Source of the DNA: a virus
Virus record (IMG/VR): IMGVR_UViG_3300008517_000282
Span: 1 to 36,328 of that record
Reading direction: 5' to 3' (one strand)
DNA: 36,328 nucleotides
The translations under genes and the position numbers were made by a program. Positions within the stretch are counted from its first letter, which is position 1, and every line of letters begins with the position of its first letter. Shown here one piece after another: positions 988 through 36,328 of the stretch. The notes under the pieces were generated by a model. That model did not search any database, was not told the DNA's origin, and was given only the letters and a program-made list of their open reading frames with translations.

Positions 988-1505
988 AACGATGGAATCA
1001 AATATCAGGTTTCTTTGACCAAAAAGAAGCAGAAAAGATTCAAGAATTAGCAAAAGGTAAAATATGTGCAGAAATAGGGAGTTTCTTTGGAAGATCGACA
1101 ACGGCATTGGCTGAAGTTGCCAAGGTAGTGTACGCAGTTGATACATTTCGGGCAAGTGGAGATGGAGCAACACAGATTGAAGGAGCACCACATGAATTTA
1201 CTATTTTGGATGGTTTTTGTGCAAACACCTTTGGCTATACCAATATCAGGATTTGCATAGGGCGATCTACTGAGATTGCCGGCACATTTAGCAATCAGTT
1301 TTTTGACCTTATTTTCATAGATGGTTCGCATGAGTACGAGGATGTAAAGGCTGATATTGAGGCATGGTGGCCAAAACTAAGCATAGGTGGAATTATGGCA
1401 TTCCATGATTACAAAGCCTGGCCTGGGGTAACAAAAGCAATTGATGAAAAATTTGTTACGGTACAGGGGTCAGTAGTTTCGCTCGGATGGGTAAATAAGA
1501 TATAA
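984..1505 (+). CDS. Class I SAM-dependent methyltransferase (Methyltransf_24 family)
   Basis: This is a 173-residue enzyme with a clear motif I (ICAEIGSFFGRSTTALA), strand 2 acidic end (YAVDTF) and the family signature FIDGSHEYEDVKADIEAW followed by GGIMAFHDY. These are hallmarks of the Methyltransf_24 class often found in glycan and antibiotic biosynthesis clusters. The ATG at 984 overlaps the preceding stop as ATGA; a longer in-frame reading from 930 lies inside the previous gene and is unlikely. The stop at 1503-1505 overlaps the next ATG by one base. It probably acts in the cytoplasm with its operon partners on a sugar or lipid-linked substrate; that is inference. Confidence 0.8.
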   Translation: MKRWNQISGFFDQKEAEKIQELAKGKICAEIGSFFGRSTTALAEVAKVVYAVDTFRASGDGATQIEGAPHEFTILDGFCANTFGYTNIRICIGRSTEIAGTFSNQFFDLIFIDGSHEYEDVKADIEAWWPKLSIGGIMAFHDYKAWPGVTKAIDEKFVTVQGSVVSLGWVNKI

Positions 1506-2344
1506 TGGCAAAACAAATAAGCATAGTAATAAATCTTGATACCCGAGAAGGATTTGAAGATAGTACAACTGCATCGGAAGCAAATGTGATTGGTGGGACA
1601 AAATCAATCGATTTCTTTACCGAAGGGGTTAAGAACAAACAGAATTTTTTTAAAGGTTATGACATAGAAACAACAGTATTTGTAGATATTCACAAGGAAA
1701 TCCCAAGGGAAATAGAAGATAAACTGCGTTCGCTTTCAATAGACAATTTGGTGTTGAGCAAACATAACGAAACGTACATTGAGGGGCCTTTTTTTCCGAA
1801 GTGGCTTGATCTAAACATGCTTAACACTCTTATGCTTGCAAAAGGAAAATACGTAGCTCATTTCGATCAGGATATGGCTGCATTCAGAAATGATGATAAC
1901 GTAGTAAATCAATGGATGCAATGGTTAGATGAAGGTAAGTATGAGTATATTTCGTATCCAAGCAGACATTCACCATGTCCTGTTCGGGACTCTGATTTCG
2001 ATTATAATTGGGTATCGACACGCTTTTTTTTCTGCAAGAGAGAGATATTTGATCATACAGAGATATTAAAATGTTTACGGAACAGTGAGTATCTTTATGG
2101 CAAATATGGCGAGAAGAAAAGAAAATGTCCATGGCTAGAACACATCATGGGGATTATGGCTACTCCCGGGAAGGTATTTTATCCGCCTATGGATCCAAAG
2201 AGATATATGATCTTCAGCTGGGGCCTTTACCATGCAGGAATTTTAGGTAAGCTCAATGACATGCCATATAATGATGTTCTTAAATATGTAATGGATTCGG
2301 GTGGCGTGAGTTATCCATGCGATGTAAGAGCAAAAAACCTATAA
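1505..2344 (+). CDS. GT-A fold glycosyltransferase-like protein
   Basis: The 279-residue protein starts with a short strand (ISIVINLDTREGF) and carries HFDQDMAAF near residue 122, a DXD-type metal and nucleotide-sugar binding motif after GKYVAHF. Such layouts are typical of family 2-like (GT-A) glycosyltransferases. Later aromatic and Cys-rich segments (SYPSRHSPCPVRDSDF, KRKCPWLEHIMGIMA) do not match a family I can name. It overlaps the upstream methyltransferase stop by one base and is followed by a small helical protein. The predicted role is transfer of a sugar from a nucleotide sugar; donor and acceptor are unknown. Confidence 0.6.
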   Translation: MAKQISIVINLDTREGFEDSTTASEANVIGGTKSIDFFTEGVKNKQNFFKGYDIETTVFVDIHKEIPREIEDKLRSLSIDNLVLSKHNETYIEGPFFPKWLDLNMLNTLMLAKGKYVAHFDQDMAAFRNDDNVVNQWMQWLDEGKYEYISYPSRHSPCPVRDSDFDYNWVSTRFFFCKREIFDHTEILKCLRNSEYLYGKYGEKKRKCPWLEHIMGIMATPGKVFYPPMDPKRYMIFSWGLYHAGILGKLNDMPYNDVLKYVMDSGGVSYPCDVRAKNL

Positions 2345-2361
2345 TAAAAAGGAAGAAAACA

Positions 2362-2694
2362 ATGGAAGAATTACAATCAGGATTACCTGAAAAGACGAAA
2401 GTTTATTTAGAGTTTGTAAACATCTTTGTAGAAACTATGCAAAGAGCGAGGCAAAAGAAAAATATAAATGATCTCAGCACAAGGCTATTGAAAGCAGGTC
2501 TTAATCTAATGATTTTAGCACCAGATAATGTTGTAAAAAAATATACGATCTGGAGATCATTTGCCATGGAAGGCGGGGATATGGAAGGAACGGTAAAGGC
2601 TTTTGGAGATGTCATCATAGAGATGAGAAAAGATATTATAGGGCAAACAGAGTGCAAGATTGACGATGTATTGGACGTTTTTTTGAAAGGATAG
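2362..2694 (+). CDS. Small helical protein, unknown function
   Basis: I do not recognise this 110-residue protein. It is mostly amphipathic helix without a membrane segment. The C-terminal stretch EMRKDIIGQTECKIDDVLD resembles a pattern (MRKD-G followed by a DVL/DIL helix) that occurs at the ends of various uncharacterised bacterial proteins. The ATG at 2362 is chosen because AAGGAAG lies about 8 bases upstream; the in-frame ATG at 2317 is inside the previous gene. It lies 5 bases before the next glycosyltransferase gene and is probably co-transcribed with it. Confidence 0.6.
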   Translation: MEELQSGLPEKTKVYLEFVNIFVETMQRARQKKNINDLSTRLLKAGLNLMILAPDNVVKKYTIWRSFAMEGGDMEGTVKAFGDVIIEMRKDIIGQTECKIDDVLDVFLKG

Positions 2695-2699
2695 ACGAT

Positions 2700-3785
2700 A
2701 TGTTAAGAGTTTGCTTCACAGGAAACATGTTCCCATTCGGCGAAGGTATCGCTTACGGTGGTGAAAGAATCCTTTATTACTTGATACAGGAATTATCCAA
2801 GTTGGGCCATGAGATCTATCTCTTTACGAAAGAAGGATGCAATATACCTGATGGAATAGTGAAGGACTATATTCCAGTAGGGAAATTAGAAGATGGTAAC
2901 GATATTCATTTTAATATTGCGTCTGCCTATGCCAAAAAACATGGGTTCGAGTTTGATATTTATCAGTGCAACTATTTCGGCGAATCGTGGACAGAAGAAA
3001 CACAGGAACGGTGGCCATACGTTGAACTGACATGGAATCGGTGGTGTCACGCTGCATGGCAGTTAAAGAAACATCCTTTTAATGTCATCTCTTACTCAAA
3101 GGTTCTGCAGCAAGATTTCAAACAAGTGGGCATCGATACCATAATGATTCATTACGGTATTCCAAAAGAGTTGTATCAGTTCCAGCCCGAGCATGATAAT
3201 TACGCTGTTTGGATTGGAAAAATAGAGGCGGGCAAGGCCCCCAGCTTGGCAATTAAACTTGCAAAGGCCGCGGGATTGAAAATTGTCATAATGGGACCTC
3301 CATACAGTACAACCTGTTTCTATGGTGAAGTGGCTCCATATATCGACAATGAGACAGTATTTTGGGTACGGGGAGTAGATGACCGGCAAAAACAAAAGAT
3401 TATGTCCAGAGCAAAAGCATTCATATCCAGCAATGCCAATATATGGCAAGAGCATTTTGGGATAGTCAATGCAGAAGCATTGGCCATGGGAGTACCGATA
3501 ATTGCATTTAATAGAATAAACCAGGATTGTGCAATCAAAACTGATGGGATAATTGAAGATGGTAAACAAGGATTCTTTCTAAACTACAATGATTCAAACA
3601 ATGTTGATGAGATATTAGAGAAAGGTGTTCCGTTATTGAATAGGATCCATGAGATAGACAGACAGGAATGTCGGAGTCAGTTTGAAAGATACTTCACGTC
3701 TGAGCTTATGGCAAAACGGTATGATTGGTTATATAAACAAATCACTCAAGGTAAAAGGTTTGCAACAGTAGAAATACCGATATGA
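2700..3785 (+). CDS. GT-B (family 4-type) glycosyltransferase
   Basis: The 361-residue product has the two-domain GT-B layout. The N-terminal domain has an early glycine-rich loop (FGEGIAYGGERILYYLIQEL), as in family 4 acceptor domains. The C-terminal domain begins near residue 165 (YAVWIGKIEAGKAPSLAIKLA) and carries QEHFGIVNAEALAMGVPIIA around residue 250, where the E-x7-E nucleotide-sugar contact is intact. It is predicted to be a retaining transferase using an NDP-sugar at the inner membrane face or in the cytosol. It is followed by a terminator-like hairpin at 3841-3880, so it may end the first transcription unit of the island. Confidence 0.8.
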   Translation: MLRVCFTGNMFPFGEGIAYGGERILYYLIQELSKLGHEIYLFTKEGCNIPDGIVKDYIPVGKLEDGNDIHFNIASAYAKKHGFEFDIYQCNYFGESWTEETQERWPYVELTWNRWCHAAWQLKKHPFNVISYSKVLQQDFKQVGIDTIMIHYGIPKELYQFQPEHDNYAVWIGKIEAGKAPSLAIKLAKAAGLKIVIMGPPYSTTCFYGEVAPYIDNETVFWVRGVDDRQKQKIMSRAKAFISSNANIWQEHFGIVNAEALAMGVPIIAFNRINQDCAIKTDGIIEDGKQGFFLNYNDSNNVDEILEKGVPLLNRIHEIDRQECRSQFERYFTSELMAKRYDWLYKQITQGKRFATVEIPI

Positions 3786-3840
3786 AATAAGAAAACTTTT
3801 TAAACGGGACTGATCATCCCTGATAGAGCTGAAAGAATAA

Positions 3841-3880
3841 GGGTTCTGCCACGTGGCCCTGGGGCGGAACCCTTTTCTTT
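3841..3880 (+). terminator. Rho-independent terminator or attenuator
   Basis: GGGTTCTGCC at 3841-3850 pairs with GGCGGAACCC at 3863-3872 (10 pairs, one G.U), with a 12-base loop, followed at once by TTTTCTTT. This is a standard intrinsic terminator form. Only 17 bases separate it from the start of the radical SAM gene, leaving no room for a promoter between them, so regulated read-through (attenuation) is possible. Confidence 0.75.
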
Positions 3881-3897
3881 TGGCGTAAGAGAGAAAA

Positions 3898-5112
3898 ATG
3901 AAACCAGACATAACATTAGTATTTCCATCGAGCCCGTTTTTAATAGACCAGAAGGTATTTCCACCTTTGGGGATAATGTACCTGGCCGGATATTTAAAAG
4001 AGCATGGTTTGCAGGCACAGTGTCTTGATATGGCTATACATAAACCTGATATGGCGAAAGCGGATATTATCGGTATATCCATTACCACACCCCAGCGTTT
4101 GGAAGCCTACAGGCTGATGGATTATTATAAGAAAAAGGGCAAGACAGTTATTGCCGGAGGTCCACATGCTACACATATGCCTAAAGAGTGTAAAGACCAT
4201 GGATTTGATTATGTGTTGGGTAATGAAGCAGAGAAATCACTTTACCATTTTCTTAAAACAGATGAACAGTTGCGCCCTGTATCTGAGTTCAATGCTTCTC
4301 TTCTCCCTGCTAATGCTATTCCTTTTCCTGATAGAGATGCTTTGCCAGTACATGATTATAAGTATGAGCTTAATGGGAAACCGGCAACGGTAATAATGAC
4401 ATCTCGTAGCTGCCCTTGGCGTTGCAGCTTCTGCGCCAAGATAAACGATAACTTCAGAATGCAATCGGCACAAAGAACGGTTGATGAGATTCTGCATATC
4501 AATAAGAAATACGGGTTTGAGGCCTTCATGATATTTGATGACATTTTTATAATCAACAAAAAGAGGCTGGCTGCAATCATAGATGGAATAAAAGGAAGAG
4601 ACTTTGTTTTCAGATGTTTTGGAAGGACAAATCTGATTAATGAAGATACCTGTAGGCTGATAAAAAAGTTAGGAGTTGTTGAAGTGGGGCTTGGAGTAGA
4701 AAGCGGGGCAAATGAGATTCTTGCCAAAAATATTAAAAAAACGACTCGTGAAATGAATACAAAGGCGGTTAAGCTGTTGCACAAATATGGAATACGAGCA
4801 AAGGCATTTCTGATTGTGGGCCTTCCTGGAGAAACACTCGGAACAATTGAAAAAACATCTTCATGGATTCAGGAAGCCCAGCCTGATGATATCGATATCA
4901 GCATTTTTCAGCCATTGCCGGGATCTGTGATTTTTAAAGACCCTGAAAAATGGGATATCCAATTCAATTATGATGGAAAACCTCAGTGGTATAAAGGGCA
5001 ACCGGGTAGATATGGTTCTACGGTAAGGACTAAAATGCTTTCAGCAGAGCGCATTATCATTCACCGGGCATTATTAGAAGCTAGGTATAAGGATCAATCA
5101 TTATTGAGATGA
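3898..5112 (+). CDS. B12-binding-domain radical SAM protein
   Basis: This 404-residue protein has an N-terminal Rossmann-like B12-binding-type domain: PPLGIMYLAGYLKEHG near residues 22-37 and VIAGGPHAT near 84-92. There is no obvious DxHxxG cobalamin ligand. The radical SAM core follows, with C172-x3-C176-x2-C179 (SCPWRCSFC) for the [4Fe-4S] cluster, then GLGVESGANEILAKNIKK and AFLIVGLPGET, both typical of the family. Members carry out methylations and other radical reactions, often in lipid and natural-product pathways. It probably modifies the product of the surrounding transferases; the substrate is not readable. It ends in an ATGA overlap with the next gene. Confidence 0.85.
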   Translation: MKPDITLVFPSSPFLIDQKVFPPLGIMYLAGYLKEHGLQAQCLDMAIHKPDMAKADIIGISITTPQRLEAYRLMDYYKKKGKTVIAGGPHATHMPKECKDHGFDYVLGNEAEKSLYHFLKTDEQLRPVSEFNASLLPANAIPFPDRDALPVHDYKYELNGKPATVIMTSRSCPWRCSFCAKINDNFRMQSAQRTVDEILHINKKYGFEAFMIFDDIFIINKKRLAAIIDGIKGRDFVFRCFGRTNLINEDTCRLIKKLGVVEVGLGVESGANEILAKNIKKTTREMNTKAVKLLHKYGIRAKAFLIVGLPGETLGTIEKTSSWIQEAQPDDIDISIFQPLPGSVIFKDPEKWDIQFNYDGKPQWYKGQPGRYGSTVRTKMLSAERIIIHRALLEARYKDQSLLR

Positions 5113-20543: not shown

Positions 20544-20819
20544 ATGTTATTTCATGTCGGAGAAGCCAGAACTATTACACAGGCCTGTTCTCTTAATGCT
20601 GCTGATATGGAACCCGATTCAGCAACTATTAAAATAACCAAGGATGACACTGCAATAGTAGATACAACCGCGGCAGGCGTAAGTGGAAACCAGGTTTATT
20701 ATCCTATTAGTTCCTCAAATGTAACAGCAGTGGCAGGCGAATATAAATTTGTTTGGACAATTTTGAAAGGAACATCAACCTATATTCATGTCGATTATAT
20801 CGCTGTAAAGGATGTGTAA
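20544..20819 (+). CDS. Small Ig-like (BppU-N-type) protein
   Basis: The 91-residue product fits one Ig-like domain of the type found at the N-termini of baseplate upper proteins: ADMEPDSATIKITKDDTAIV, YYPISSSNVTAVAGEYKFVW and a final YIHVDYIAVKDV strand. AAGGAGAG precedes the ATG. It is probably a tail-tip or fibre adaptor. Confidence 0.55.
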   Translation: MLFHVGEARTITQACSLNAADMEPDSATIKITKDDTAIVDTTAAGVSGNQVYYPISSSNVTAVAGEYKFVWTILKGTSTYIHVDYIAVKDV

Positions 20820-20821
20820 GC

Positions 20822-21241
20822 ATGGGGTGTGAATTTACTGTAGTAAACGATACCGATGTGTTTGCAGTAGTGAATGCCACTGATATATTTACTGTAGTAA
20901 ACGATACCGATGTGTTTGCAGTAGTGAATGCCACTGATATATTTACTGTAGTAAACGATACCGATGTGTTTGCAGTAGTAACTGAATGTTTGGCATTTAC
21001 GGCGTTTCATGAACATGCATTCCATGAAATACCAACAGGATTGATTAATGGAATAAATATGGAATTTATATTTTCCACTCAATTTTGGGAGGGAAGTATA
21101 AGGATTTACATGAATGGACTGGAATTAAAAAAAGATACCGATTATCAGGAAGATATTTTGAATAAAAAAATTACTTTCACAGCTGCACCGCTATCTGGAG
21201 ATCTTATCTGGGGTAGTTATGTAAAATGGGGGGAAGGATAA
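20822..21241 (+). CDS. Tail-fibre-like protein with 9-residue tandem repeats
   Basis: The N-terminal third of this 139-residue product is a tandem repeat, FTVVNDTDV alternating with FAVVNATDI, encoded by a 54-bp DNA repeat (20834-20981). Nine-residue VV-N-TD repeats suit a small beta-solenoid or fibre shaft. The C-terminal part (HEIPTGLINGINMEFIFSTQ, IRIYMNGLELKKDTDYQ, GDLIWGSYVK) is a separate beta domain, paralogous to the whole next protein. The ATG at 20822 is used; an in-frame ATG at 20753 lies within the previous gene. Confidence 0.6.
   Translation: MGCEFTVVNDTDVFAVVNATDIFTVVNDTDVFAVVNATDIFTVVNDTDVFAVVTECLAFTAFHEHAFHEIPTGLINGINMEFIFSTQFWEGSIRIYMNGLELKKDTDYQEDILNKKITFTAAPLSGDLIWGSYVKWGEG
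20834..20981 (+). repeat. 54-bp tandem direct repeat, 2.7 copies
   Basis: The unit starting at the TTTACTGTAGTAAACGATAC sequence recurs at 54-base intervals (ACTG at 20837, 20891, 20945), with copies essentially identical. Each unit encodes two related 9-residue half-repeats. It lies wholly in frame within the gene at 20822, so copy number changes would lengthen the protein without breaking it. Confidence 0.9.
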
Positions 21242-21477: not shown

Positions 21478-21663
21478 ATGAGTCAGGTTCGTATGAGTAC
21501 ACAGGTTAATGATGATGAAAACCGATTGCTTTCTGATGCGAATAAACTTGTTTTACAGCGAGCTATTCAATCTATTCCTAATCCAGGAGAGCAAACTGTT
21601 GTTCGTATTAAAAAACTCGTGGGTGGCGATTTTATCTTCGAGTGGGAAGAGGATGTTGTTTGA
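21478..21663 (+). CDS. Small protein with the SIP...GDFxFxW module
   Basis: The N-terminus of this 61-residue protein is polar; the C-terminus (RAIQSIPNPGEQTVVRIKKL then GGDFIFEWEED) matches by eye the end of the protein encoded at 23402 (KSIPVSDEYRVTDIRRD then AGDFVFRWDD). This C-terminal module resembles the IxxIRRxxxGxFxxxxDD endings of phage fibre proteins. The stop overlaps the next ATG. The gene therefore ends directly against the glycosyltransferase fusion. Confidence 0.55.
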   Translation: MSQVRMSTQVNDDENRLLSDANKLVLQRAIQSIPNPGEQTVVRIKKLVGGDFIFEWEEDVV

Positions 21664-23405
21664 TGAATATATCTGTGATAATGCCACACCTCAAGCTTTA
21701 TGGAGGAGTACGCCGGTTCCTTGAAATAGGGAATGAAATGACAAGCAGGGAGCATGAATACACTATTTATCACAGTGATGGCTCTACTCCAGATTGGTTT
21801 AAATATAACGGAAAGTTGGCCCCGATATCGGAAGTTTATAAGAAAGAACATGAAATTCTTTTGTGTGGAGATGCACCTTCCCTTGACATTTTTGCCAAGT
21901 GTAAGGCCAGGCTCAAGATTGTTTATATCATTTTTCCCTATTCGCAAAGATATGGAATAGGGAATTATAAAAACCTGAAAGATGATTATGTATTGATTGG
22001 CAATTCTATCGGCTGGGAAAAGAAATTTCCACCGAAAGCATTGTTGGAGTTCTCTACCCATACAGTAAGTGGAGGTATAAATCTTAACCAATTTAAACCT
22101 TCTTCTACTCGAGCTGATAAAAAATTCAGAGTATTGGTCTATGCCAAATTTGATAGGCCATGGAAAAGGGCAGGTGATGTAGTTAAAGCCTTAGAAATGC
22201 TTAAGAGCCCTCCTGTCTTGATGCTTTATGATGTTCAAGAATGGAGATTTTCAACAGAATTAGAAATTGAAAATTATGTTAATCCTTCACAGGAAAATTT
22301 AAGTCAAATGTATAGCAAGGCTGACATAGTTGTATGTCCTGAAGAATTGGGGGGCTGGTGCAATATAGCAGCAGAGGCGATGGCCTGTAAGACAGCTGTT
22401 GTTTGCACATCTTCCGGGACTTCAGATTTTGCTATAGATAATGAGACTGCATTGTTATTTCCGGTAGGTGATATTAAATCTATAGCCAATGCCGTTGAAA
22501 AATTAAGATCTGATTCTCTTTTACGGAAAAAAATTGCCAAACAAGGTCATAAAAAAATACAAGAGTTTGACTGGCACAAAACTTGCGATTGCCTTGAAGA
22601 AATTTGTAAAAAAGAATTAAGCTTAAAACGGTCTTCATGGGAATCTGTGGCAGATCATTACAAGCAAAGGTTCGGCGGAATAGAGCATATACAAAGAAAA
22701 GATAGGGTGGTGCTTACTAAAGTAATTGAAGGCAATACCAGCCCATATGATTCTTTCTTGGATGTTGGATGTAACATTGGAGTTATAAGTGAAACTATAA
22801 ACAGGATCGGAGCAAAATATCTCGGGATTGATATTTCTAAAAAGGCAATTAAATATGCCAGAAATAAATACCCTAAAAACGATTTCATGGTTGGAAGCAT
22901 TTATGACTTAAGCTTTTCTAAAGATGATCAATGGGGAGTTGTCTTAGTTAGTGATGTATTTATGCACATTGATGATTATGAACAAGCCCTTAAAAAATTA
23001 TGGAGAGTCACAGAAGGAAAGCTGATAATTAATGTCTGGACCCACAAAGGCACTACAAGGAATATTGGCGGAAAAGGGTCTTTGGGGGGAATAGATGCTT
23101 GGATTTATAATTTTAATGATTTCAAGGCTTCGCTTGAGAAGTTATCTCCTTTTCGACTACAGCATGTTGAATCGAGTGAACCTCAGTATAATCATACAAT
23201 ATTTATTCTTAGCAAACATGAACCTGCCAAATCCGATTTTAGGCGGAATCTATATCTTTTGTTAAAGCAGAAGGATATGGCATTTCATACTGTTGAGAAA
23301 CTCGATGAGCATTCTCTTGAAGAGAGATTTTCTCTAATAAAAGATCAAAAATTAGAGAAGCTCGTAGAGGAGATAATTTCTTGTAGGGGAGGTGAAAAAA
23401 TATGA
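21663..23405 (+). CDS. GT-B glycosyltransferase fused to SAM methyltransferase
   Basis: This 580-residue product has two enzymes in one chain. Residues 1 to ~330 are a family 4-like GT-B glycosyltransferase: an N-terminal PHLKLYGGVRRFLEIGNEM acceptor-side loop, FRVLVYAKFDRPWKRAGDVV at the second domain start, and CPEELGGWCNIAAEAMACKT, where the first Glu of the usual E-x7-E is Gly. Residues ~340-520 are a class I methyltransferase: FLDVGCNIGVIS (motif I, ~364), YLGIDISKKAIKYAR, and GVVLVSDVFMHIDDYEQALK. A charged helical tail ends it. The most likely role is adding a sugar and then methylating it. Starts at 21663, overlapping the previous stop. Confidence 0.85.
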   Translation: MNISVIMPHLKLYGGVRRFLEIGNEMTSREHEYTIYHSDGSTPDWFKYNGKLAPISEVYKKEHEILLCGDAPSLDIFAKCKARLKIVYIIFPYSQRYGIGNYKNLKDDYVLIGNSIGWEKKFPPKALLEFSTHTVSGGINLNQFKPSSTRADKKFRVLVYAKFDRPWKRAGDVVKALEMLKSPPVLMLYDVQEWRFSTELEIENYVNPSQENLSQMYSKADIVVCPEELGGWCNIAAEAMACKTAVVCTSSGTSDFAIDNETALLFPVGDIKSIANAVEKLRSDSLLRKKIAKQGHKKIQEFDWHKTCDCLEEICKKELSLKRSSWESVADHYKQRFGGIEHIQRKDRVVLTKVIEGNTSPYDSFLDVGCNIGVISETINRIGAKYLGIDISKKAIKYARNKYPKNDFMVGSIYDLSFSKDDQWGVVLVSDVFMHIDDYEQALKKLWRVTEGKLIINVWTHKGTTRNIGGKGSLGGIDAWIYNFNDFKASLEKLSPFRLQHVESSEPQYNHTIFILSKHEPAKSDFRRNLYLLLKQKDMAFHTVEKLDEHSLEERFSLIKDQKLEKLVEEIISCRGGEKI

Positions 23406-24037
23406 GTATTCAAAGTACTGCATTTGACCCATTAGATATTTCTGAGACCGCAAGCGAGGCTGTTTCACTCGGCACTTTAGGAGAATCCGAAGGCTTAGTG
23501 GCGAGTGAGCGGGTAAGTGAGGCTCACAGTGAAATTAGTTTGGCAAGCCCTTCAGAAGTCTTGGTTGTTTCTGAGGATGCAAGTGAGGCTGTTTCTATAG
23601 CACTTTTAGGTCAGTCCGAGGCTATATTAGCAAGTGACAATGCAAGCGAAATCAGGTCACTCGCTACATTGGGAGAGTCTGAAGGTGTGCTGGCAAGTCA
23701 CGAAGCAAGCATAGGCCAATCCGAAGGCTTAGTGGCAAGCGAGCGGGCAAGTGAGGCTACATCGGTTGCCAATCTATCGAATCCCTCAGAAATTTTAGTT
23801 GTTTCTGAGAGTGCAAGCGAGGCTGTTTCACTCGGCACTTTGGGAGAATCCGAAGCTTTAATAGCAAGTGAACGGGCAAGTGAGGCTCACAGTGAAGTTG
23901 CTCTTATTGATAGTGAACAAGCTCTTGAGCAATGGATTAAGTCTATACCTGTTTCCGATGAATATAGAGTTACTGATATTCGGAGAGATTCGGCTGGTGA
24001 CTTTGTGTTCAGATGGGATGATGCCAGTGTTGCTTAA
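23402..24037 (+). CDS. Ser/Glu-rich repeat protein with fibre-type C-terminal module
   Basis: The first ~170 of 211 residues are degenerate repeats of about 20 residues with the core ASEAVSLGTLGESEALI, rich in SE pairs. DNA around 23451 and 23813 repeats with few changes. The last ~40 residues (IKSIPVSDEYRVTDIRRD then GDFVFRWDD) are the module also carried by the protein at 21478. It looks like a surface or fibre-associated protein, either a coiled or solenoid shaft with many exposed serines. It is coupled (ATGA) to the upstream GT/methyltransferase fusion and followed by two more glycosyltransferase genes, so it is a candidate acceptor for them; that is inference. Confidence 0.65.
   Translation: MSIQSTAFDPLDISETASEAVSLGTLGESEGLVASERVSEAHSEISLASPSEVLVVSEDASEAVSIALLGQSEAILASDNASEIRSLATLGESEGVLASHEASIGQSEGLVASERASEATSVANLSNPSEILVVSESASEAVSLGTLGESEALIASERASEAHSEVALIDSEQALEQWIKSIPVSDEYRVTDIRRDSAGDFVFRWDDASVA
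23450..23920 (+). repeat. Degenerate ~60-bp repeats coding for the Ser/Glu units
   Basis: The stretch beginning GCAAGCGAGGCTGTTTCACT near 23451 recurs near 23813 with few substitutions, and shorter related copies fill the space between. All copies keep the reading frame, giving roughly eight 14-23-residue units. Confidence 0.7.
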
Positions 24038-24055
24038 TTCAATGAGCTATTTACA

Positions 24056-24082
24056 GGTCGGAGTACATAAAATACTCCGACC
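24056..24082 (+). other. Perfect 10-bp stem-loop before a glycosyltransferase gene
   Basis: GGTCGGAGTA (24056-24065) and TACTCCGACC (24073-24082) are perfect complements with a 7-base loop. There is no U-tract on either strand, so it is not a standard terminator. It could stabilise or mark processing of the transcript between the repeat protein and the next gene. Confidence 0.6.
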
Positions 24083-24099
24083 AAAAGGATTCGCAACCG

Positions 24100-24819
24100 A
24101 TGATAGATCTTGAAATTATAATTCGGAGCATAGGAGAACCTGAATTAGCTGAATGCATTAAATCAGCAGAAGCTCAAACAATCAAGGCTCCGATAAGGCT
24201 CATTGAAAATTATTCTTTAGTTGAAGCAACCAGAAAGGCAATTTCAGAAAGTATATATAAATATTTAGTTTTTGTTGGCGCTGATGTCATTCTGTATAAT
24301 TTTGCAATTGAGAGATTATATGAAATTATTATTAAAGAAAAATCTCCTTCAGTTGCTGGAGTATTAAAAGATTCTTTTTTGGGATTAATTTTTGGAATAC
24401 GCATTATTGACACAAGTTATTATAAGCAGATTGAAATTAAAAATAAAATTGGATGGGATAGATGGGCAGCAGCAGAGATTTGGAAAAAATGGGGGCTTAG
24501 AGAATATTGTTTAAATGATGTATTGGGTACACATCACTCTGAGTACACACCTGAATCAGCATTTAAAAAGTTTTTAAGATCAGGTCAAAAATATGCTTCT
24601 TTTTGGGAAGATGATATACAGTCCTTTGAACTTTTGTGCAAAAAATGGCTGGATACCAAAGAGGACAATGCCTTGGCTGCAATTGTAGGTTTTTGTTATG
24701 GAATGATGATTAATCCTGTATCTCCTATGCAGGAAAAAGACCAGACATTTGGAATTGAGGAATGGAAGATTTTCAAAAATCTTATTGATTGGAAAAAATC
24801 TGACAGGTTGACGAGATGA
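24100..24819 (+). CDS. GT-A (family 2-like) glycosyltransferase
   Basis: The 239-residue protein starts DLEIIIRSIGEPELAECI and SAEAQTIKAPIRLIENYSLV, like the first Rossmann half of GT2 enzymes, and continues EATRKAISESIYKYLVFVGADVIL, where GADV sits at the DXD position. The C-terminal half is helical with aromatic residues. It is somewhat short for the family, so it may need a partner. It overlaps the next gene by 4 bases (ATGA). It is expected to act in the cytoplasm on a protein or lipid-linked acceptor. Confidence 0.6.
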   Translation: MIDLEIIIRSIGEPELAECIKSAEAQTIKAPIRLIENYSLVEATRKAISESIYKYLVFVGADVILYNFAIERLYEIIIKEKSPSVAGVLKDSFLGLIFGIRIIDTSYYKQIEIKNKIGWDRWAAAEIWKKWGLREYCLNDVLGTHHSEYTPESAFKKFLRSGQKYASFWEDDIQSFELLCKKWLDTKEDNALAAIVGFCYGMMINPVSPMQEKDQTFGIEEWKIFKNLIDWKKSDRLTR

Positions 24820-25859
24820 AAATAGCACACTTTAGTCTTTGGGGGCCTCGAAGATCCGGCCTCTATGAATATACAGCAGATCAAGTTAGGTGCGAGCGCA
24901 GGACTGGTCTGGATTCTCTTTTTCTGTGCTGTGAACAGGAGAATCCAGACCCAAAAAGATTTACAGATGATGATATAACTGCCGTGGATTGGGAAAAAGC
25001 AAAAGATGCAGATGTTTGGGTTATGCACCGCAGCATTCCTGTTAAAATGAGTGGTGACATAAGAAAACATGGTAATATCGCTATTCTGCATGGAACAGCA
25101 GAATACATGATAATGTTAGAGCAATTTGGAAAAGAGAGAAAGTTTGATATGCACCTTAATATGTTAGCTCGGTTCGATAAGTCTGTAGCAGTAAATGCAT
25201 CTGATTATTACATAATGAAAAATCTTTATGATAAGGGCAATAATGTTATTTATATTCAAGATGCAATAGATTTACAAAAATTTAATGGCTCTGGTTTTGC
25301 CTGGCCATACAGATACCGCCCTGCAATTATCTCTACAGCAAATATAAGATTCAACAAAGTTCCTATTTCCATTCTATGGGCTATGCCGGAGATTGTGAAA
25401 CGGCTGCCGAAAGCTCGTTTAAACCTATTTGGCATACGGCTTGCCGATATTAATATGTGGAAAGATCTTATACTGAAGAGCAAGGGACTCGATATACTTT
25501 GTGAAAATATCCATGGCCAATTTACCGAACTAAGACCATTTCTGGCTGGAGGGGATATTGGCGTTAATAGCAATATGAATGGTATTACAAGCAGGGATAC
25601 ACTTGAGCAAATGGCCTACGGTATGCCGATTATCTCTTACCGGGGTGAATATACAAAATATCATGCTATTGTAATGGACCCGGTATCAATCGCAAAAACT
25701 ATTGAGCGATGCTGGCATGATATGGAAAAAGATCCTGAAGGTATGAGACAAAAAATCAGGGCCTATGCAGAAAAGAATTTTTGCATGGATAAAGCTGTTC
25801 AAAAATTTATCAAACTTTATGAGGAGGTCATTGAAATAAATGCAAAACGGAAAAGATGA
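24816..25859 (+). CDS. GT-B (family 4-like) glycosyltransferase
   Basis: The 347-residue protein has a GT-B layout: N-terminal strand MKIAHFSLWGPRRSGLYEYT, an inter-domain region RPAIISTANIRFNKVPISIL, and the donor-site motif GITSRDTLEQMAYGMPIISY. Here too the first Glu of E-x7-E is replaced (Gly), so donor binding may be altered. It is likely a retaining transferase. It overlaps the previous gene as ATGA and the next by 20 bases, so it is tightly coupled in the island. Confidence 0.75.
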   Translation: MKIAHFSLWGPRRSGLYEYTADQVRCERRTGLDSLFLCCEQENPDPKRFTDDDITAVDWEKAKDADVWVMHRSIPVKMSGDIRKHGNIAILHGTAEYMIMLEQFGKERKFDMHLNMLARFDKSVAVNASDYYIMKNLYDKGNNVIYIQDAIDLQKFNGSGFAWPYRYRPAIISTANIRFNKVPISILWAMPEIVKRLPKARLNLFGIRLADINMWKDLILKSKGLDILCENIHGQFTELRPFLAGGDIGVNSNMNGITSRDTLEQMAYGMPIISYRGEYTKYHAIVMDPVSIAKTIERCWHDMEKDPEGMRQKIRAYAEKNFCMDKAVQKFIKLYEEVIEINAKRKR

Positions 25860-26628
25860 TTCATATGTAAATATATTAATCCCTGTTTATAATAATCTGG
25901 ATTTTACGCTAAAATGTATAACATCAATCTTAATAGATAAACAACCGATTCCTTATCAAATAACCATTATAGATAATGGTTCAACTGATGGCACAACCGA
26001 ATGGGTTCGCAAGTTTCAAGGTGATCGCGCAATTTATAATGAAGAAAATCTAGGTTGGGTCAAGGCCCTTAATCAGGGCATTAAAAAAACAAAAGGTGAT
26101 TTTGTTGTGTTTCTGAATAATGATGTAGAGGTTGGCAGTGGATGGTTACAGAAATTAATCGGTCCATTAAAACATTCCGACATAGGGACTTGTGGACCTA
26201 TTGGTTCTAACGACCATGACTGGCAATATTTTGGAAAAGTAAGAAAAAATTTTCCTCAATTAGACTTACCTGAATTTGAAGATCCTAAAGATGTAGACGG
26301 TTGCAATAAAATTCTTGAAGAGAAATATGGAAATAAATTTCTGAAAATTCATGGAATGCTTGCCTTTTTTGCAGTTGCCTTCCGCAGAGAAACCATAGAG
26401 AGAGTGGGCTTGTTGGATGAAAGATTCGGTGTAGGGCTTGGAGATGATGACGATTATGCACGAAGGCTTGAACAGAAAGATCTCGGTTTGGCACTTGCTC
26501 TAAGTTGTTATGTCTTGCACTATTCCCAGACAACCTTTAAACAACTCTACAATGATAAAGAACTTAAGGCATTGCAGGCCAGAAATTATAATCTTCTGAA
26601 GGGAAAATACCCCGGGAGGTATAAATAA
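25840..26628 (+). CDS. GT2 family glycosyltransferase
   Basis: The 262-residue protein has the clearest GT2 signature in the window: VNILIPVYNNLDFTLKCITS, ITIIDNGSTDGTTEWV, NLGWVKALNQGIKKTKGDFV, the DXD motif FLNNDVEVGSGW and the downstream acidic GLGDDDDYARRLEQKDLG. It is likely an inverting transferase that uses a nucleotide sugar. The ATG lies about 12 bases after a GAGGAGG in the previous gene. The next gene is a GHKL ATPase. It is probably part of a four-enzyme glycosylation set (21663, 24100, 24816, 25840). Confidence 0.9.
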   Translation: MQNGKDDSYVNILIPVYNNLDFTLKCITSILIDKQPIPYQITIIDNGSTDGTTEWVRKFQGDRAIYNEENLGWVKALNQGIKKTKGDFVVFLNNDVEVGSGWLQKLIGPLKHSDIGTCGPIGSNDHDWQYFGKVRKNFPQLDLPEFEDPKDVDGCNKILEEKYGNKFLKIHGMLAFFAVAFRRETIERVGLLDERFGVGLGDDDDYARRLEQKDLGLALALSCYVLHYSQTTFKQLYNDKELKALQARNYNLLKGKYPGRYK

Positions 26629-29184: not shown

Positions 29185-29940
29185 ATGGCTGAGTTTTTAG
29201 TTCAATTAAAAGATCACTGGATGGATGGGGTTAACAGATCTAAGTGGGATTATTTTAAACTGGAGAAGTTCAAACGAAGAAATATTAAAGGCTGTCCTAT
29301 TGTGGTTAAGCCTGATGGGTGTCCGTGGGGAAAAGAGGAGTGTCCTCCAAATTATGCTGTGATTAAAGTTCCTAATCTTTCTATAGCTGAGGGTGAAATT
29401 TATATACAAGCATGGGATAGGATTTGTGAATTCAATGAACTTACTGAATGGACACATAAGACTGCTGCAAGATTGGAAAGTATTTCTCAAGAAGAGGCAA
29501 TATCTGAGAATGAGCAGACTGCTCTTACTAATCTTTGGATAGAACACGGTCAACTTGAGAGACATTTGATAATTGAGGATGTTAAATTTAACGATATTAC
29601 TTTTACGTTCACAGGTCTTACACCAGAAGAACAGCATTCCTTGTGGATTCAAAAGCTTGAAACTCGGTATCCACAATGTATAGTTAAAGACTTAAAACTT
29701 GGAGAAGTTGATCTCAATTTTGATGGTAAGAGAATAACTACACTTAAGACAACAATATATTCTAAAGCTGAACAAAAGACCCATTTTATTGCTGAGGAGG
29801 GAATGTGGAGTAAGAAGATCCGGCGTAGACAGTATACCCTTCCAGAGGAATTGTTACTTCATAATAGTATAATGACGAAAACCCAGTTTTTAGCGAGTAT
29901 TATTGATCGCAAGCAACAAATGGCTGGAGATTTGATATAA
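29185..29940 (+). CDS. Conserved-looking fibre-region protein, unknown
   Basis: The 251-residue protein has an N-terminal EFLVQLKDHWMD then CPIVVKPDGCPWGKEECPPN and YAVIKVPNLSI, a style seen in several phage hypothetical proteins near tail fibres. A central, mostly helical region (TAARLESISQEEAISENEQT) has no recognisable domain. It lies one base before the beta-helix fibre gene. AAAGGAGAT precedes its ATG. Confidence 0.55.
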   Translation: MAEFLVQLKDHWMDGVNRSKWDYFKLEKFKRRNIKGCPIVVKPDGCPWGKEECPPNYAVIKVPNLSIAEGEIYIQAWDRICEFNELTEWTHKTAARLESISQEEAISENEQTALTNLWIEHGQLERHLIIEDVKFNDITFTFTGLTPEEQHSLWIQKLETRYPQCIVKDLKLGEVDLNFDGKRITTLKTTIYSKAEQKTHFIAEEGMWSKKIRRRQYTLPEELLLHNSIMTKTQFLASIIDRKQQMAGDLI

Positions 29941-31805: not shown

Positions 31806-31985
31806 ATGAAAATGAGTGCACTTAACGGGGATGACCTTATTGGACAAATTGTTAATATCACACTTCTTTTCACAGATAAAGAGCTAATAAAACACTTTAG
31901 TCCAGATGCACCTAAAGTATTCAGGAAATGTGCGGATCGGATTGAAGAAGTGTTTGAGAGAGAGGTAGATGAAAAAGCTAATTAA
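31806..31985 (+). CDS. Small helical protein, 59 residues
   Basis: The first gene after the lysis promoter encodes MKMSALNGDDLIGQIVNITL, LFTDKELIKHFSPDAPKVFR, KCADRIEEVFEREVDEKAN. It is helical and acidic at the C-terminus and soluble-looking. It overlaps the lysozyme start by 17 bases, so the two are translationally coupled. There is an alternative ATG at 31812. It has no clear Shine-Dalgarno. Function unknown; perhaps a lysis or late regulator. Confidence 0.55.
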   Translation: MKMSALNGDDLIGQIVNITLLFTDKELIKHFSPDAPKVFRKCADRIEEVFEREVDEKAN

Positions 31986-32373
31986 AATGATCAAAAAACA
32001 TGAAGGTTATCGAAAATTTCCATATAAATGTAGTGCTGGAAAACTAACTATTGGCTGGGGGCATAATTTAGATAATACGGGAATTTCTATAGAAGTAGCA
32101 GAACAAATGTTAGATGAGGATATTGAAAAAGCCTATCAGGATATTCTTTATGTATTTCCAGATTTTTATAGTTATTCGCAAAATAGGCAAGATGCTTTGG
32201 CAAATATGATATTTAACCTTGGTAGGAATGGTTTTTTAAAGTTCAAAAAGATGATTCATGCTATCCATAAAGATGATTGGGAAGAGGCAACAAAAGAGGC
32301 TGAAGATAGCAAATGGCACAACCAAGTAGGCACAAGAGCAATCGAAATTGAAAATTTATTAAAGAAAGGATAG
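31969..32373 (+). CDS. Endolysin, T4-type lysozyme (GH24)
   Basis: The 134-residue muramidase has the T4 lysozyme catalytic pattern: E12 (KKHEGYRKF), C21 and T27 (YKCSAGKLTIGWGHN). The spacing E-x8-C-x5-T matches the E-D-T triad with Cys in place of Asp, a known variant in phage lysozymes. Further GH24 cues are ANMIFNLGRNGFLKF and the SKWHNQVGTRAIEIENLL end. There is no signal or SAR segment, so a holin would be needed for release. It degrades peptidoglycan during lysis. It overlaps the gene at 31806 by 17 bases. Confidence 0.9.
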   Translation: MKKLIKMIKKHEGYRKFPYKCSAGKLTIGWGHNLDNTGISIEVAEQMLDEDIEKAYQDILYVFPDFYSYSQNRQDALANMIFNLGRNGFLKFKKMIHAIHKDDWEEATKEAEDSKWHNQVGTRAIEIENLLKKG

Positions 32374-33154: not shown

Positions 33155-33328
33155 ATGTTTATTATATTTGCACATTTAATGACTTTTTATAAGCTCTATA
33201 AAACTTTAAGAAGTGGTTATTCTAAATTGCGTCCTATTTTATTGGAATTGGTAAAAGACTCTGCAACCAAAATTGATGATAAGGCTGTGAATGTTTTAGA
33301 TGGGATTTTCTTTCAGGATGATAAGTAA
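33155..33328 (+). CDS. Small protein, 57 residues, N-terminal hydrophobic
   Basis: It has a strong AAAGGAGGTAAATC site before the ATG and encodes MFIIFAHLMTFYKLYKTLRS, GYSKLRPILLELVKDSATKI, DDKAVNVLDGIFFQDDK. The N-terminal ~14 residues could be membrane-associated; the rest is an amphipathic helix. It is the last plus-strand gene before transcription converges. Function unknown. Confidence 0.5.
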   Translation: MFIIFAHLMTFYKLYKTLRSGYSKLRPILLELVKDSATKIDDKAVNVLDGIFFQDDK

Positions 33329-33330
33329 TA

Positions 33331-33450
33331 ATCCTCTACCAAGCGTAGTAGGATCTCTTTCGCTGTCCTTATCATTAAGGGCAGCGATTGCTAAATGACT
33401 AAAGGCAATTGCCGAAAGAATCCCTCACGTCAAATGATATGGGGGATTAT
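33331..33450 (+). ncRNA. Multi-stem structured region between convergent genes, ending in a terminator-like hairpin
   Basis: Hairpin A: ATCCTCTAC (33331-33339) with GTAGTAGGAT (33345-33354). Hairpin B: CGCTGTCCTTA (33361-33371) with TAAGGGCAGCG (33376-33386), 11 pairs with one G.U and a TCAT loop. Hairpin C: ATTGCT (33387-33392) with GGCAAT (33404-33409). TCTTT (33356-33360) can close around B and C with AAAGA (33415-33419). Hairpin D: AATCCCTC (33419-33426) with GGGGGATT (33441-33448), followed by ATTATTTATTAATT. It could act as a terminator complex or as an RNA. Confidence 0.5.
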
Positions 33451-33461
33451 TATTTATTAAT

Positions 33462-33522
33462 TGTTAACGCCTCACATGAGCAGGCGTGGTATTATACGCT
33501 CTGCTCTATGTGATTGTTATAT
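33462..33522 (-). other. attC-like recombination site 1
   Basis: Reading the minus strand: R'' ATATAAC (stop TAA of the next gene overlaps it), AA spacer, L'' TCACATAGAGCA, 19-base centre with GCGT/ACGC pairing, L' TGCTCATGTGA, GGC spacer, R' GTTAACA. L'' differs from the complement of L' by one extra base after 6 bases, as in integron attC sites. Total 61 bp. R'' and R' match the consensus RYYYAAC and GTTRRRY only partly (6/7 and 5/7). Confidence 0.55.
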
Positions 33523-33741
33523 ACCGATTACAATTCCAATTCCTTTTATGATGTATTCATCTATCGGTTCTTCAGTAATGATTACATCCACAATTTCAAA
33601 GGATTGGCCTTTTTTGATTTGTTCTGCTTGAGCCAAAATTTTTGCTCGTTCTTCAGTGAGTGATATTTTGCTATTAATAATATGAATGATAAAAACACAT
33701 GTTTTATCTTTAAACGTGACCTTCCACTTTTTCATATTCAT
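33517..33741 (-). CDS. Cassette-type small protein, unknown
   Basis: This 74-residue protein has alternating hydrophobic strands (WKVTFKDKTCVFIIHIINSK, GQSFEIVDVIITEEP) around a helix (EERAKILAQAEQIKKG) and a hydrophobic end (IIKGIGIVIGI). The ATG follows an AGGAGG by 6 bases. Its stop lies inside the R'' core of attC-like site 1 and its start lies 19 bases after the R' core of site 2, the arrangement of an integron gene cassette about 299 bp long. No family recognised. Confidence 0.6.
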   Translation of the reverse strand: MNMKKWKVTFKDKTCVFIIHIINSKISLTEERAKILAQAEQIKKGQSFEIVDVIITEEPIDEYIIKGIGIVIGI

Positions 33742-33760
33742 TACTTTCCTCCTTTGCTAT

Positions 33761-33821
33761 ATATAACGCTGGGCTTCAGACGGCCCGCTTTTTAGGGCTC
33801 GACTGCAAGCCCTTGTTAGGT
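33761..33821 (-). other. attC-like recombination site 2
   Basis: Minus strand: R'' ACCTAAC (perfect RYYYAAC), AA spacer, L'' GGGCTTGCAG, 23-base centre with a GGCCC/GGGCT inner stem, L' CTGAAGCCC, AGC spacer, R' GTTATAT (one mismatch). L'' carries one extra G after 6 bases relative to the complement of L', the same position as the extra base in site 1. Total 61 bp, as in site 1. It lacks a T-run, so it is not a terminator. Confidence 0.6.
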
Positions 33822-34054
33822 AATACCCATTCCGAATATCCCTCACCTCTACGTGTTTCAATCCCATAGTTATTATCAAGTTCGTTTGCCATTTTTTCCC
33901 ATATATGGCCGTTTGTATCATCGTTATCCCGTAGCCAATTAGACACTCTCACAAAAGCGGCACACGTTGAACACATTGGCATATCATGTGTCTCATGGCC
34001 GTTTTTTGTTTGCCATATCTCAGTAGCTATTTCTCCGCAATACCAACAGTTCAT
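33776..34054 (-). CDS. Cassette-type zinc-ribbon protein
   Basis: The 92-residue protein has C3-x2-C6 (NCWYCGEIA) and C28-x2-C31 (MCSTCAAF), a typical zinc ribbon. The C-terminal ending EWVLPNKGLQSSPKKRAV is partly encoded by attC-like site 2, as often happens with integron cassette genes whose stop lies inside attC. The ATG lies 10 bases downstream of a GTTAGGT core on the minus strand (34064-34070). No strong Shine-Dalgarno. It is possibly a small nucleic-acid-binding protein; that is inference. Confidence 0.6.
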   Translation of the reverse strand: MNCWYCGEIATEIWQTKNGHETHDMPMCSTCAAFVRVSNWLRDNDDTNGHIWEKMANELDNNYGIETRRGEGYSEWVLPNKGLQSSPKKRAV

Positions 34055-34063
34055 AAGTAAGAT

Positions 34064-34121
34064 ACCTAACGTGTGTATCAGCCGCCCGAAGTTTTTTGAG
34101 GGTCGGGTGTATCAGATTGAT
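34064..34121 (-). other. Degenerate third cassette boundary: GTTAGGT core and hairpin
   Basis: GTTAGGT (minus strand, 34064-34070) is a perfect GTTRRRY core, about 303 bp from the boundary at 33767, one cassette length. Next to it lie a CCCGA/TCGGG hairpin (34084-34088 with 34102-34106) and two direct copies of GTGTATCAG. The outer arms are direct rather than inverted repeats, so this is not a full attC; it may be a rearranged one. Confidence 0.3.
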
Positions 34122-34163
34122 ATGTACCAACGGACTTCTTCAAAAATTCTGACATTTTTTCCC

Positions 34164-34508
34164 TTACCCTCCATATCTTACTCTATAATACATTACCGTA
34201 CCCTCAACTGTCCCTATGTTATGAGCTATTTCTTTAACGGATAACATGCCCCTTACATTCCGTGGGATTGCCTTGAATTTATCTAATTTCGTGGGGTGTC
34301 GTTGCCCTTTTGGTTGTATATTAATGCCCTGCTGTCGTAGACGTGCTAATACAACCATGGCGCTCACACCTAATATTTCTTCTATTTTTTGAGAACTGTA
34401 TTTCGGATAGAGTTTCTTCCACATCTGTTTTTCAGTATATGGAGTGTGGTATTTGTCGTTATAACCTTCTGTTATGAATTGCCAGTTGATTGTCATTTGC
34501 TTTTTCAC
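34164..34508 (-). CDS. Protein with two helix-turn-helix-like repeats
   Basis: This 114-residue product has two HTH-like stretches: YSSQKIEEILGVSAMVVLAR then LRQQGI, and LSVKEIAHNIGTVEGTVMYY then RVRYGG. This resembles small phage regulators or DNA-binding proteins. The start is GTG at 34508, overlapping the previous stop as GTGA; an ATG at 34496 is an alternative with the Shine-Dalgarno 11-13 bases upstream. It probably acts in early gene control. Confidence 0.6.
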   Translation of the reverse strand: MKKQMTINWQFITEGYNDKYHTPYTEKQMWKKLYPKYSSQKIEEILGVSAMVVLARLRQQGINIQPKGQRHPTKLDKFKAIPRNVRGMLSVKEIAHNIGTVEGTVMYYRVRYGG

Positions 34509-34687
34509 TCCTCCCTATCCCAATCTTTTATATGTCTTTTCACCGGCTCAGACCCTTTAAGCCATTGGTAATATCCACAACCCTTACACTGCGGGTCCGA
34601 TTGTTGATAATGCCATATGCAAACGTCAATATGTGTCCGGTGTAGTGGTAGATTGTTGTAGGTGCACCATGATTTATTGTCATTCAT
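34505..34687 (-). CDS. Small Cys-rich protein
   Basis: The 60-residue product has cysteines at 8, 23, 34 and 37 with HIDVCIWHYQQSDPQCKGCG, so a zinc-binding fold is likely. It overlaps the upstream gene by 8 bases and the downstream gene by GTGA, in a coupled string. No family recognised. Confidence 0.5.
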   Translation of the reverse strand: MNDNKSWCTYNNLPLHRTHIDVCIWHYQQSDPQCKGCGYYQWLKGSEPVKRHIKDWDREE

Positions 34688-34934
34688 TCTCCTCTGTTCT
34701 CTCCCTCTCCTTCATTATCCTCTCATTATGTTCCCGTATCATTTGAAGTCCATCGGCGTATTCTTTCCATGTTAGTGGCCTTATCTCCCTCTCCTTCTCC
34801 CTCTCCCTCTCCATAAACTCAATCAGGTAATTATTAACTTCCCTGGATACCTGATACACATTGGATACAAGGTCTTTTCCCTTTCGCAACATACCTTCAG
34901 CTATTATTTCTGCGGCTATGTCTTTAGGGGTCAT
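34680..34934 (-). CDS. Small charged helical protein
   Basis: This 84-residue protein is helical and very rich in Glu and Arg (EREREKEREIRPLTWKEYAD, IREHNERIMKERERTEENE), with an N-terminal helix TPKDIAAEIIAEGMLRKG. It is probably a phage early protein. AAGGTGAAGAG precedes the ATG. Function unknown. Confidence 0.5.
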   Translation of the reverse strand: MTPKDIAAEIIAEGMLRKGKDLVSNVYQVSREVNNYLIEFMEREREKEREIRPLTWKEYADGLQMIREHNERIMKERERTEENE

Positions 34935-34943
34935 CTCTTCACC

Positions 34944-35669
34944 TTACGAAAGTAATTTTTGTTTATTTTCTATAATTTTGATGATTTTATCCGGCGACAG
35001 AAAGTCTTTTATTTTTTCATTTAATTGACAGACAGAAGTTAATAGATTAACGAAGAATTCCGCTGCTTCCTCTGTATAATCGATTTCTTTTACCATCTCA
35101 TTGCAGGGTGGCGATATAGAAGCAAAAGAATTTAACCAATGCAAATAGACACCTTCTTTGACTTCTTTATCAATAGGGTAATATTCTGACTTTATTTTGC
35201 CGGATTTAAATTTGTTAGTTTCCTTTTGATAGGAGCGGGCATATACACTAAAGCCAAATGGTTGTGGTTTTGTTGCGTGTTGCTCAACAGTCCCGTCTCT
35301 CCAAGCATAGGAATCTGTTTTTGTCCAATATCTCTGACCATTAGGCACGATGTTGCCATCTACATCTAAACAGTATAAACAGGTCGTTTGAATAACATAT
35401 CGAATGACTATTTTAGTTTCTATCGTTTCTTTGCTGTAATACTCTCTAATAATATCTTTGATATTGTTTTTTAAACCTTCATAAGTATCAGATATAAAAA
35501 AGCCTGATTTCCTCATTCTGTTTTGTTTCAATTCAATACCTACCCCCTGAAAAATTTCAACAATATCCGGCGGTAAAGTAGTTGAAAATTGACCTTCTTT
35601 ATCCACATAGATTTTATAAGTGAAATTTAATTCCTGTTCTTTTATTCTTTCTATTTTAAGCTGTGCCAT
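34944..35669 (-). CDS. Hypothetical early-region protein
   Basis: I do not recognise this 241-residue protein. The N-terminal half has strands (LNFTYKIYVDKEGQFSTTLP, ETKIVIRYVIQTTCLYCLDV), a segment with Trp/Tyr (GQRYWTKTDSYAWRDGT) and a helical C-terminal half (AAEFFVNLLTSVCQLNEKIK). It has no membrane segment. It sits between small genes and the RusA-like resolvase, in the typical DNA-metabolism arm of a phage. A role in recombination or replication is possible from the location only. Confidence 0.5.
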   Translation of the reverse strand: MAQLKIERIKEQELNFTYKIYVDKEGQFSTTLPPDIVEIFQGVGIELKQNRMRKSGFFISDTYEGLKNNIKDIIREYYSKETIETKIVIRYVIQTTCLYCLDVDGNIVPNGQRYWTKTDSYAWRDGTVEQHATKPQPFGFSVYARSYQKETNKFKSGKIKSEYYPIDKEVKEGVYLHWLNSFASISPPCNEMVKEIDYTEEAAEFFVNLLTSVCQLNEKIKDFLSPDKIIKIIENKQKLLS

Positions 35670-35673
35670 TAAT

Positions 35674-35901
35674 TCACCCTGCCACCTTTTTGTTTCGCAA
35701 CGCCTTTAATCTCCTCGCAAGATATCGATAGCTTTGCTCTTTTTTAATAACTTCCTGCATCTGTTTATTGGTAATCGATTCCTGAGCCTCCAGTTGTTTG
35801 ATATAATTAACATCCGAAACAAACTCCCAGACATCTGGACCTAATTTTTCTTTGAGATAGGCTTCCTGGGCTTTAGCAATGTCAAAATTTTTAGAGGTCA
35901 T
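35674..35901 (-). CDS. Small helical protein
   Basis: The 75-residue product is mostly helix (KAQEAYLKEKLGPDVWEFVS, QMQEVIKKEQSYRYLARRLK). The start overlaps the resolvase stop (TATGA), so it is coupled to rusA. No family recognised; it may be a DNA-binding accessory, given its basic C-terminal end (ALRNKKVAG). Confidence 0.5.
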   Translation of the reverse strand: MTSKNFDIAKAQEAYLKEKLGPDVWEFVSDVNYIKQLEAQESITNKQMQEVIKKEQSYRYLARRLKALRNKKVAG

Positions 35902-36328
35902 ATCTCCTCTATCTCAACTTGAGTTGCTGCCTCTAAACCATAAACTTTCATAGCTACTATATGACAGACTTGCGAATCATCTTCCCACAGGAATTTATTG
36001 AGACAATCCTTTACAAACTTGATAAGGTTATCAAGATCGGGTCGTTTATCGTGCCACATCATTTGCCCATCTTCGAGTTTTTTCATATCTTTTTTAGGGG
36101 TATTTTTGGGTATAGGCATAATAAAAGAAACTTTTAAAATGACAGGGCCTTCGATTAGTTTTAATGGTCCGGTAAATAACCCTTGCTCATGTAATTGATG
36201 TTTTGCTTCCCATAACCAACGGCCTTCTTCTGTTTGTTGGTCATTATATGTGCCAACAAAGTTGCCTCGCCTAAAGAAGCGTGGTCTTTTTTTGGCAATT
36301 GGCTTTCCCGGGATGGTTAGATATATAG
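35898..36328 (-). CDS. rusA: RusA-family Holliday junction resolvase (cut by right edge)
   Basis: The frame is open to the right edge, so the N-terminus is missing by a few residues at most. The visible ~143 residues read LTIPGKPIAKKRPRFFRRGN, VILKVSFIMPIPKNTPKKDM, WHDKRPDLDNLIKFVKDCLN, FLWEDDSQVCHI: the RusA layout with the KPDLDNLIK and DD metal-binding acidic residues. RusA enzymes are dimeric, metal-dependent nucleases that resolve four-way junctions. An ATG at 36119 is inside the domain and not a real start. It leads the minus-strand gene string. Confidence 0.85.
   Translation of the reverse strand, partial: IYLTIPGKPIAKKRPRFFRRGNFVGTYNDQQTEEGRWLWEAKHQLHEQGLFTGPLKLIEGPVILKVSFIMPIPKNTPKKDMKKLEDGQMMWHDKRPDLDNLIKFVKDCLNKFLWEDDSQVCHIVAMKVYGLEAATQVEIEEI

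Follow-up and report, generated by a model that had tools for sequence, protein, structure and literature searches.

A two-cassette attC array at a gene junction of an uncultivated tailed phage

Do two short sites that resemble the recombination sites of integron gene cassettes, found within phage DNA, mark genuine cassettes, and if so, how did a phage come to carry them? The question arises from a 36,328-base linear virus record in IMG/VR, an incomplete fragment that we studied in its entirety and call the window. An initial annotation of this DNA had proposed two attC-like sites of 61 bp on the minus strand delimiting a single gene cassette. The surrounding DNA is that of a tailed phage (Caudoviricetes), with a tape measure protein, an endolysin and a RusA resolvase encoded on the same contig. 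The array sits where the rightward late genes on the plus strand converge with a leftward block on the minus strand that includes RusA; phage genes flank it on both sides, and both cassette genes are co-oriented with the leftward phage genes (Table 1).

This phage stands apart from those in the collections searched. No relative of the window was found among phages at the DNA level, and IMG/VR held none for the gene at 34944-35669, the tape measure protein, the gene at 29185-29940, the lysozyme or the cassette 2 protein. Matches to the tape measure protein are remote and scattered, and indicate no host. Elsewhere in the window, tail genes are flanked at 322-5112 and 21642-26628 (plus strand) by methyltransferases, glycosyltransferases and a B12-binding radical SAM protein, cargo genes that are unusual in a phage fragment of 36 kb, and the tail region encodes two tandem-repeat proteins at 20753-21241 and 23402-24037 (plus strand; TDVFAVVNATDIFTVVN... 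and ...ASEAVSLGTLGESEALIASER...). The window has no match in Rfam; one to the azaaromatic family (E 1.3) fell far under the cut-off and was discarded.

Table 1. Features of the cassette array and its surroundings, in window positions
Feature	Position	Strand	Details
Lysozyme/endolysin	31969-32373	+	PF00959, E 7.7e-17; phrog_7, E 9e-27; ends the rightward late genes
attC site 1 (cassette 1's own attC)	33462-33522	-	R'' ATATAAC at 33516-33522; in-situ R' GTTAACA at 33462-33468
Gene cassette 1	33468-33766	-	299 bp, TT...G by the G/TT cleavage rule; R''/own-start complementarity
Cassette 1 gene	33517-33741	-	74 aa, orphan; stop codon in R'' of site 1
Ribosome-binding site GGAGG	33748-33752	-	part of the cassette; lies six bases ahead of the cassette 1 start codon (ATG)
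attC site 2 (cassette 2's own attC)	33761-33821	-	R'' ACCTAAC at 33815-33821; in-situ R' GTTATAT at 33761-33767
Gene cassette 2	33767-34069	-	303 bp; R'' is the reverse complement of G plus the cassette's own first six bases, TTAGGT
Cassette 2 gene	33776-34054	-	92 aa, orphan; last codons read from the attC itself
Upstream boundary core GTTAGGT	34064-34070	-	junction of array and phage DNA; set by complementarity to R'' of site 2
Phage genes upstream of the array	34164-36119	-	D5-like HTH protein, small genes, RusA resolvase
Putative empty junction (array absent)	...CTGATACACACG/TTAACAATTAATAAATAATAATCC...		form expected in cassette-free relatives

Two attC sites and their folding

Both sites lie where the initial annotation had placed them, each exactly 61 bp long, and they share the layout that it had described: a 7-base R'' core, AA, a 6-bp arm, one extra base at position 16, an inner stem, a 6-bp arm, a 3-nt spacer (GGC or AGC) and a 7-base R' core. 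On the minus strand, site 1 reads ATATAAC AA TCACAT A GAGCAG ... CATGTGA GGC GTTAACA, and site 2 reads ACCTAAC AA GGGCTT G CAG ... GAAGCCC AGC GTTATAT. All AAC...GTT pairs of the two strands were scored on their core letters, AA/GC spacers and stem pairs around the extra position-16 base. Sites 1 and 2 came out as the top two of all pairs, with scores of 29 and 27, and the next pair scored 20. In 200 shuffles that kept the dinucleotide content of the entire window, the best score averaged 19.65 and never exceeded 26, which excludes a chance origin of the two sites.

A covariance-model search of the kind that had been suggested as a check, run with a model of our own, gave the same two sites. 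Our attC model was built from 30 attCs adjoining intI genes, with 80 loci around integron integrase genes in bacterial genomes as the training source. In 60 of these intI loci, 154 of its 156 matches lay on the strand opposite intI, as expected of cassette arrays. Applied to eight phage stretches, it found sites in TJE1, H101 (PH101), MW202573, Shewanella M16-3 and Vibrio p16, with matches of at least 19 bits confined to the five phages for which Qi et al. reported attC sites. In the window, site 2 scored 36.0 bits (E 3.3e-6) and site 1 28.8 bits (E 1.4e-4), and these were the only matches up to an E value of 5. The best match in PH101 (36.1) is on a par with site 2, and one of the TJE1 sites (28.8) with site 1.

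The cores carry AAC and GTT in both sites, and their variable positions fit the consensus in situ at 7/8 in site 2 and 5/8 in site 1. The cores of site 1 are off consensus (R' GTTAACA against GTTRRRY, R'' ATATAAC against RYYYAAC); this R' comes from the downstream flank, and the R'' is found in control cassettes too. At position 16 neither site has the classical bottom-strand G. The top strand of the 30 real attCs has C in 13, G in 7, A in 5 and T in 5 at this position, and the sites of phage H101, whose attCs include IntI1-active ones (PMC9892861), have A and T. Four other IMG/VR contigs also contain the exact motif of site 2, CTAACAAGGGCTTGCAG, and none of them has an attC.

As in known attC sites (PMC2727003), every extra-helical base of the computed folds, position 16 included, lies on the L'' side, and the plus strands of the two sites fold identically. 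This strand of the window corresponds to the bottom strand of each attC; its folding energy is -15.2 kcal/mol for site 1 (z -5.9) and -14.8 kcal/mol for site 2 (z -4.0), so the single-strand folding asked of both sites was found. Judged from their sequences, the two sites are integron attC sites, for which recombination by IntI is predicted.

Cassette boundaries and cassette genes

While a cassette is free and circular, the partner of its R'' is an R' in which the cassette's final G is joined to its own first six bases; once the cassette is inserted, this circular R' is split, and the attC ends in bases of the next cassette. Among 59 control cassettes, R'' complemented 3.73 of the 4 variable positions of its cassette's circular R' (a perfect match in 81%); the figure for the in-situ R' was 2.22 of 4, and shuffled partners gave 2.24 of 4, never above 2.64 in 2000 shuffles. 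Both window cassettes carry this signature: R'' ATATAAC of cassette 1 matches its own circular GTTATAT at 4/4 positions and the in-situ R' at 1/4, and R'' ACCTAAC of cassette 2 matches its own circular GTTAGGT at 4/4 and the in-situ R' at 2/4. These two complete matches fix the cassettes at the extents given in Table 1, each bounded by G/TT and beginning with bases that complement its R'', and they place the upstream edge of the array at the GTTAGGT core. They also identify both cassettes as former closed circles cut at G/TT; by this complementarity, the cassettes were inserted as such circles.

The integron reading of the initial annotation is therefore supported by model matches, folding and two 4/4 circular-cassette matches. 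The cassette that it proposed is real, at 299 bp, and the array is larger than the span it gave, with a second cassette upstream of the first. The complementarity between R'' and the circularized core offers a simple sequence test for cassettes and their edges, even where there is no integrase or relative; here, searches of phage DNA and IMG/VR yielded no related phages with and without the cassettes.

Each cassette carries one gene, and the gene ends that had been noted at the sites hold: the TAA of the cassette 1 gene falls within R'' of site 1, and the TGA of the cassette 2 gene within the L' arm of site 2. The cassette 1 protein has no relative in Pfam, PHROGs, or phage or plasmid collections, and its AlphaFold model, made without an alignment, is uninformative (pLDDT 43). 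The cassette 2 protein, likewise with no phage relative, has two CxxC pairs that are zinc-ribbon-like but weak (PF13248, E 0.042, under the cut-off), and its model, also made without an alignment, is poor (pLDDT 47).

The upstream edge of the array has neither an attI nor a good attC. A third, degenerate attC considered at 34064-34125 was rejected: it reaches 12 bits (E 0.14), and 40% of the GTT positions across the window do at least as well. As the sequence before the upstream core is not attC-like beyond chance, the junction between cassette 2 and phage DNA is most likely at a core that is not an attC. A 12-nt direct repeat at this edge (34070-34081 and 34104-34115; CGTGTGTATCAG and CGGGTGTATCAG), at a place where inverted arms would be expected of an attC, is perhaps attI-like or a product of chance. 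A 25-codon open reading frame (MSEFLKKSVGTYQSDTPDPQKTSGG, 34079-34153, minus strand) ends just short of the upstream core and could represent a phage gene that has been trimmed. On the other side of the array, the intergenic stretch from the last rightward gene to site 1 (33322-33462, plus strand) has a multi-branched RNA fold of -52 kcal/mol (z -6.8), closed by TAATAATCC/GGATTATTA; it has no Rfam match and no tRNA, and could be a novel structured RNA or a terminator.

Origin of the array

The array consists of two same-strand attCs 299 bp apart with no integron integrase (TIGR02249) or other tyrosine recombinase (PF00589) in the 36-kb record, which is an incomplete fragment. This absence makes it a CALIN, probably moved by a host IntI acting in trans. 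We are highly confident in this reading, namely a phage CALIN of two single-gene cassettes arranged tail to head at the junction of the late genes and the leftward operon, with IntI supplied in trans. A host integron integrase would recognize the folded bottom strand of each cassette's attC, the plus strand of the window, and would insert each cassette circle at a G/TT core. The phage would then carry the cassettes passively, their translation drawing on leftward read-through transcription, and IntI acting in trans in a later host could excise them again or pass them to a host integron.

Three other explanations have to be weighed. Ordinary intergenic hairpins with a chance resemblance to attC, for instance terminators ending the leftward operon, might be expected near a convergent junction, and one terminator-like call does overlap site 2 on the plus strand. 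However, a terminator offers no reason for two 4/4 matches between R'' and the circular R', the foremost objection; the model scores, the uniqueness of the sites in the window and the shuffles are all contrary, on the minus strand neither stem is followed by a T-run, and the genes on either side of site 2 share one strand. We regard this explanation as almost certainly wrong. It is also very unlikely that the array belongs to a complete integron with intI in the missing phage DNA, such that the phage moves its own cassettes. The record is a linear fragment beyond which an integrase could lie, and a few temperate phages are known to carry complete integrons (PMC9892861), but intI normally adjoins the first cassette beside attI, and here the 2 kb upstream are phage genes, with no tyrosine recombinase in 36 kb.

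The remaining alternative accepts the cassettes and differs on their route: both may have come from a host array in one piece, through illegitimate or homologous recombination, with no separate insertion of each into the phage by IntI. Such routes have been favoured for some phage CALINs (PMC9892861), and the downstream edge of the array cannot be fixed to the base. Against this, the upstream edge coincides with an exact cassette start, and no clear attC ends in the sequence before its core, together the pattern expected of IntI insertion at a non-attC core. We consider block acquisition a possible route, if a somewhat doubtful one. Our suggestion that a host IntI put the cassettes straight into phage DNA during infection, at an attG-like G/TT core that is neither attI nor attC and lies between the leftward and rightward gene blocks, is likewise tentative. 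Both the supplier of IntI and the setting of the insertion, either in phage DNA or at an earlier stage outside the phage, are points that we infer. If direct insertion did occur, phages would gain single cassettes as cargo, not inherited pieces of a host array.

Comparison with known cassette arrays

The phage CALIN proposed here has clear counterparts. Qi et al. (2023) found 17 CALINs among 10,705 phage genomes screened, and five of the six phage attCs they tested were active with IntI1, including attCs of PH101 and TJE1 (PMC9892861). The view that a cassette array in a phage is unusual must accordingly be tempered, as integrase-less phage arrays have been described since 2023 (PMC9892861). 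Those of virulent phages are in Tetrasphaera phage TJE1, Pseudoalteromonas phage PH101/H101 and Polaribacter phage P12002L (PMC9892861), and the window array resembles them in having at least two attCs with short orphan genes in a tailed phage with no integrase, and in its circular-cassette signature; with TJE1 and H101 it also shares attC architecture and similar model scores. It differs in that the phage and the cassette genes are unrelated to theirs and no cassette here encodes a methyltransferase.

The attCs of chromosomal integrons (Shewanella, Vibrio, uncultured Desulfobacterota and others) show the same core boxes, AA/GC spacers, extra-helical position 16 and bottom-strand hairpin, and an R'' that complements the circular cassette's own R'. 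Unlike chromosomal integrons, the window array has no adjacent intI or attI, comprises only two cassettes and is located in a phage. Insertion of cassettes into genomes at non-classical attG sites is known (Loot et al. 2024, as cited in PMC11023631 and PMC12901181); the upstream edge of the array, a G/TT core on sequence that is no attI and no clear attC, is a candidate for one.

One pattern scan of IMG/VR yielded three more contigs with attC arrays: L091 (5437-6996, four sites), L093 (1616-4650, seven sites) and L090 (3254-3646, two sites). The array of L091 neighbours genes for SbcC-like, exonuclease and RuvC-like proteins, replication and repair genes of phage type. Together with the phage CALINs of 2023, these contigs place the window array within an already known kind. 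With it, the few phages known to carry cassettes gain a well-supported member, uncultivated and lacking close relatives, which lends support to phages as vehicles of cassette exchange.
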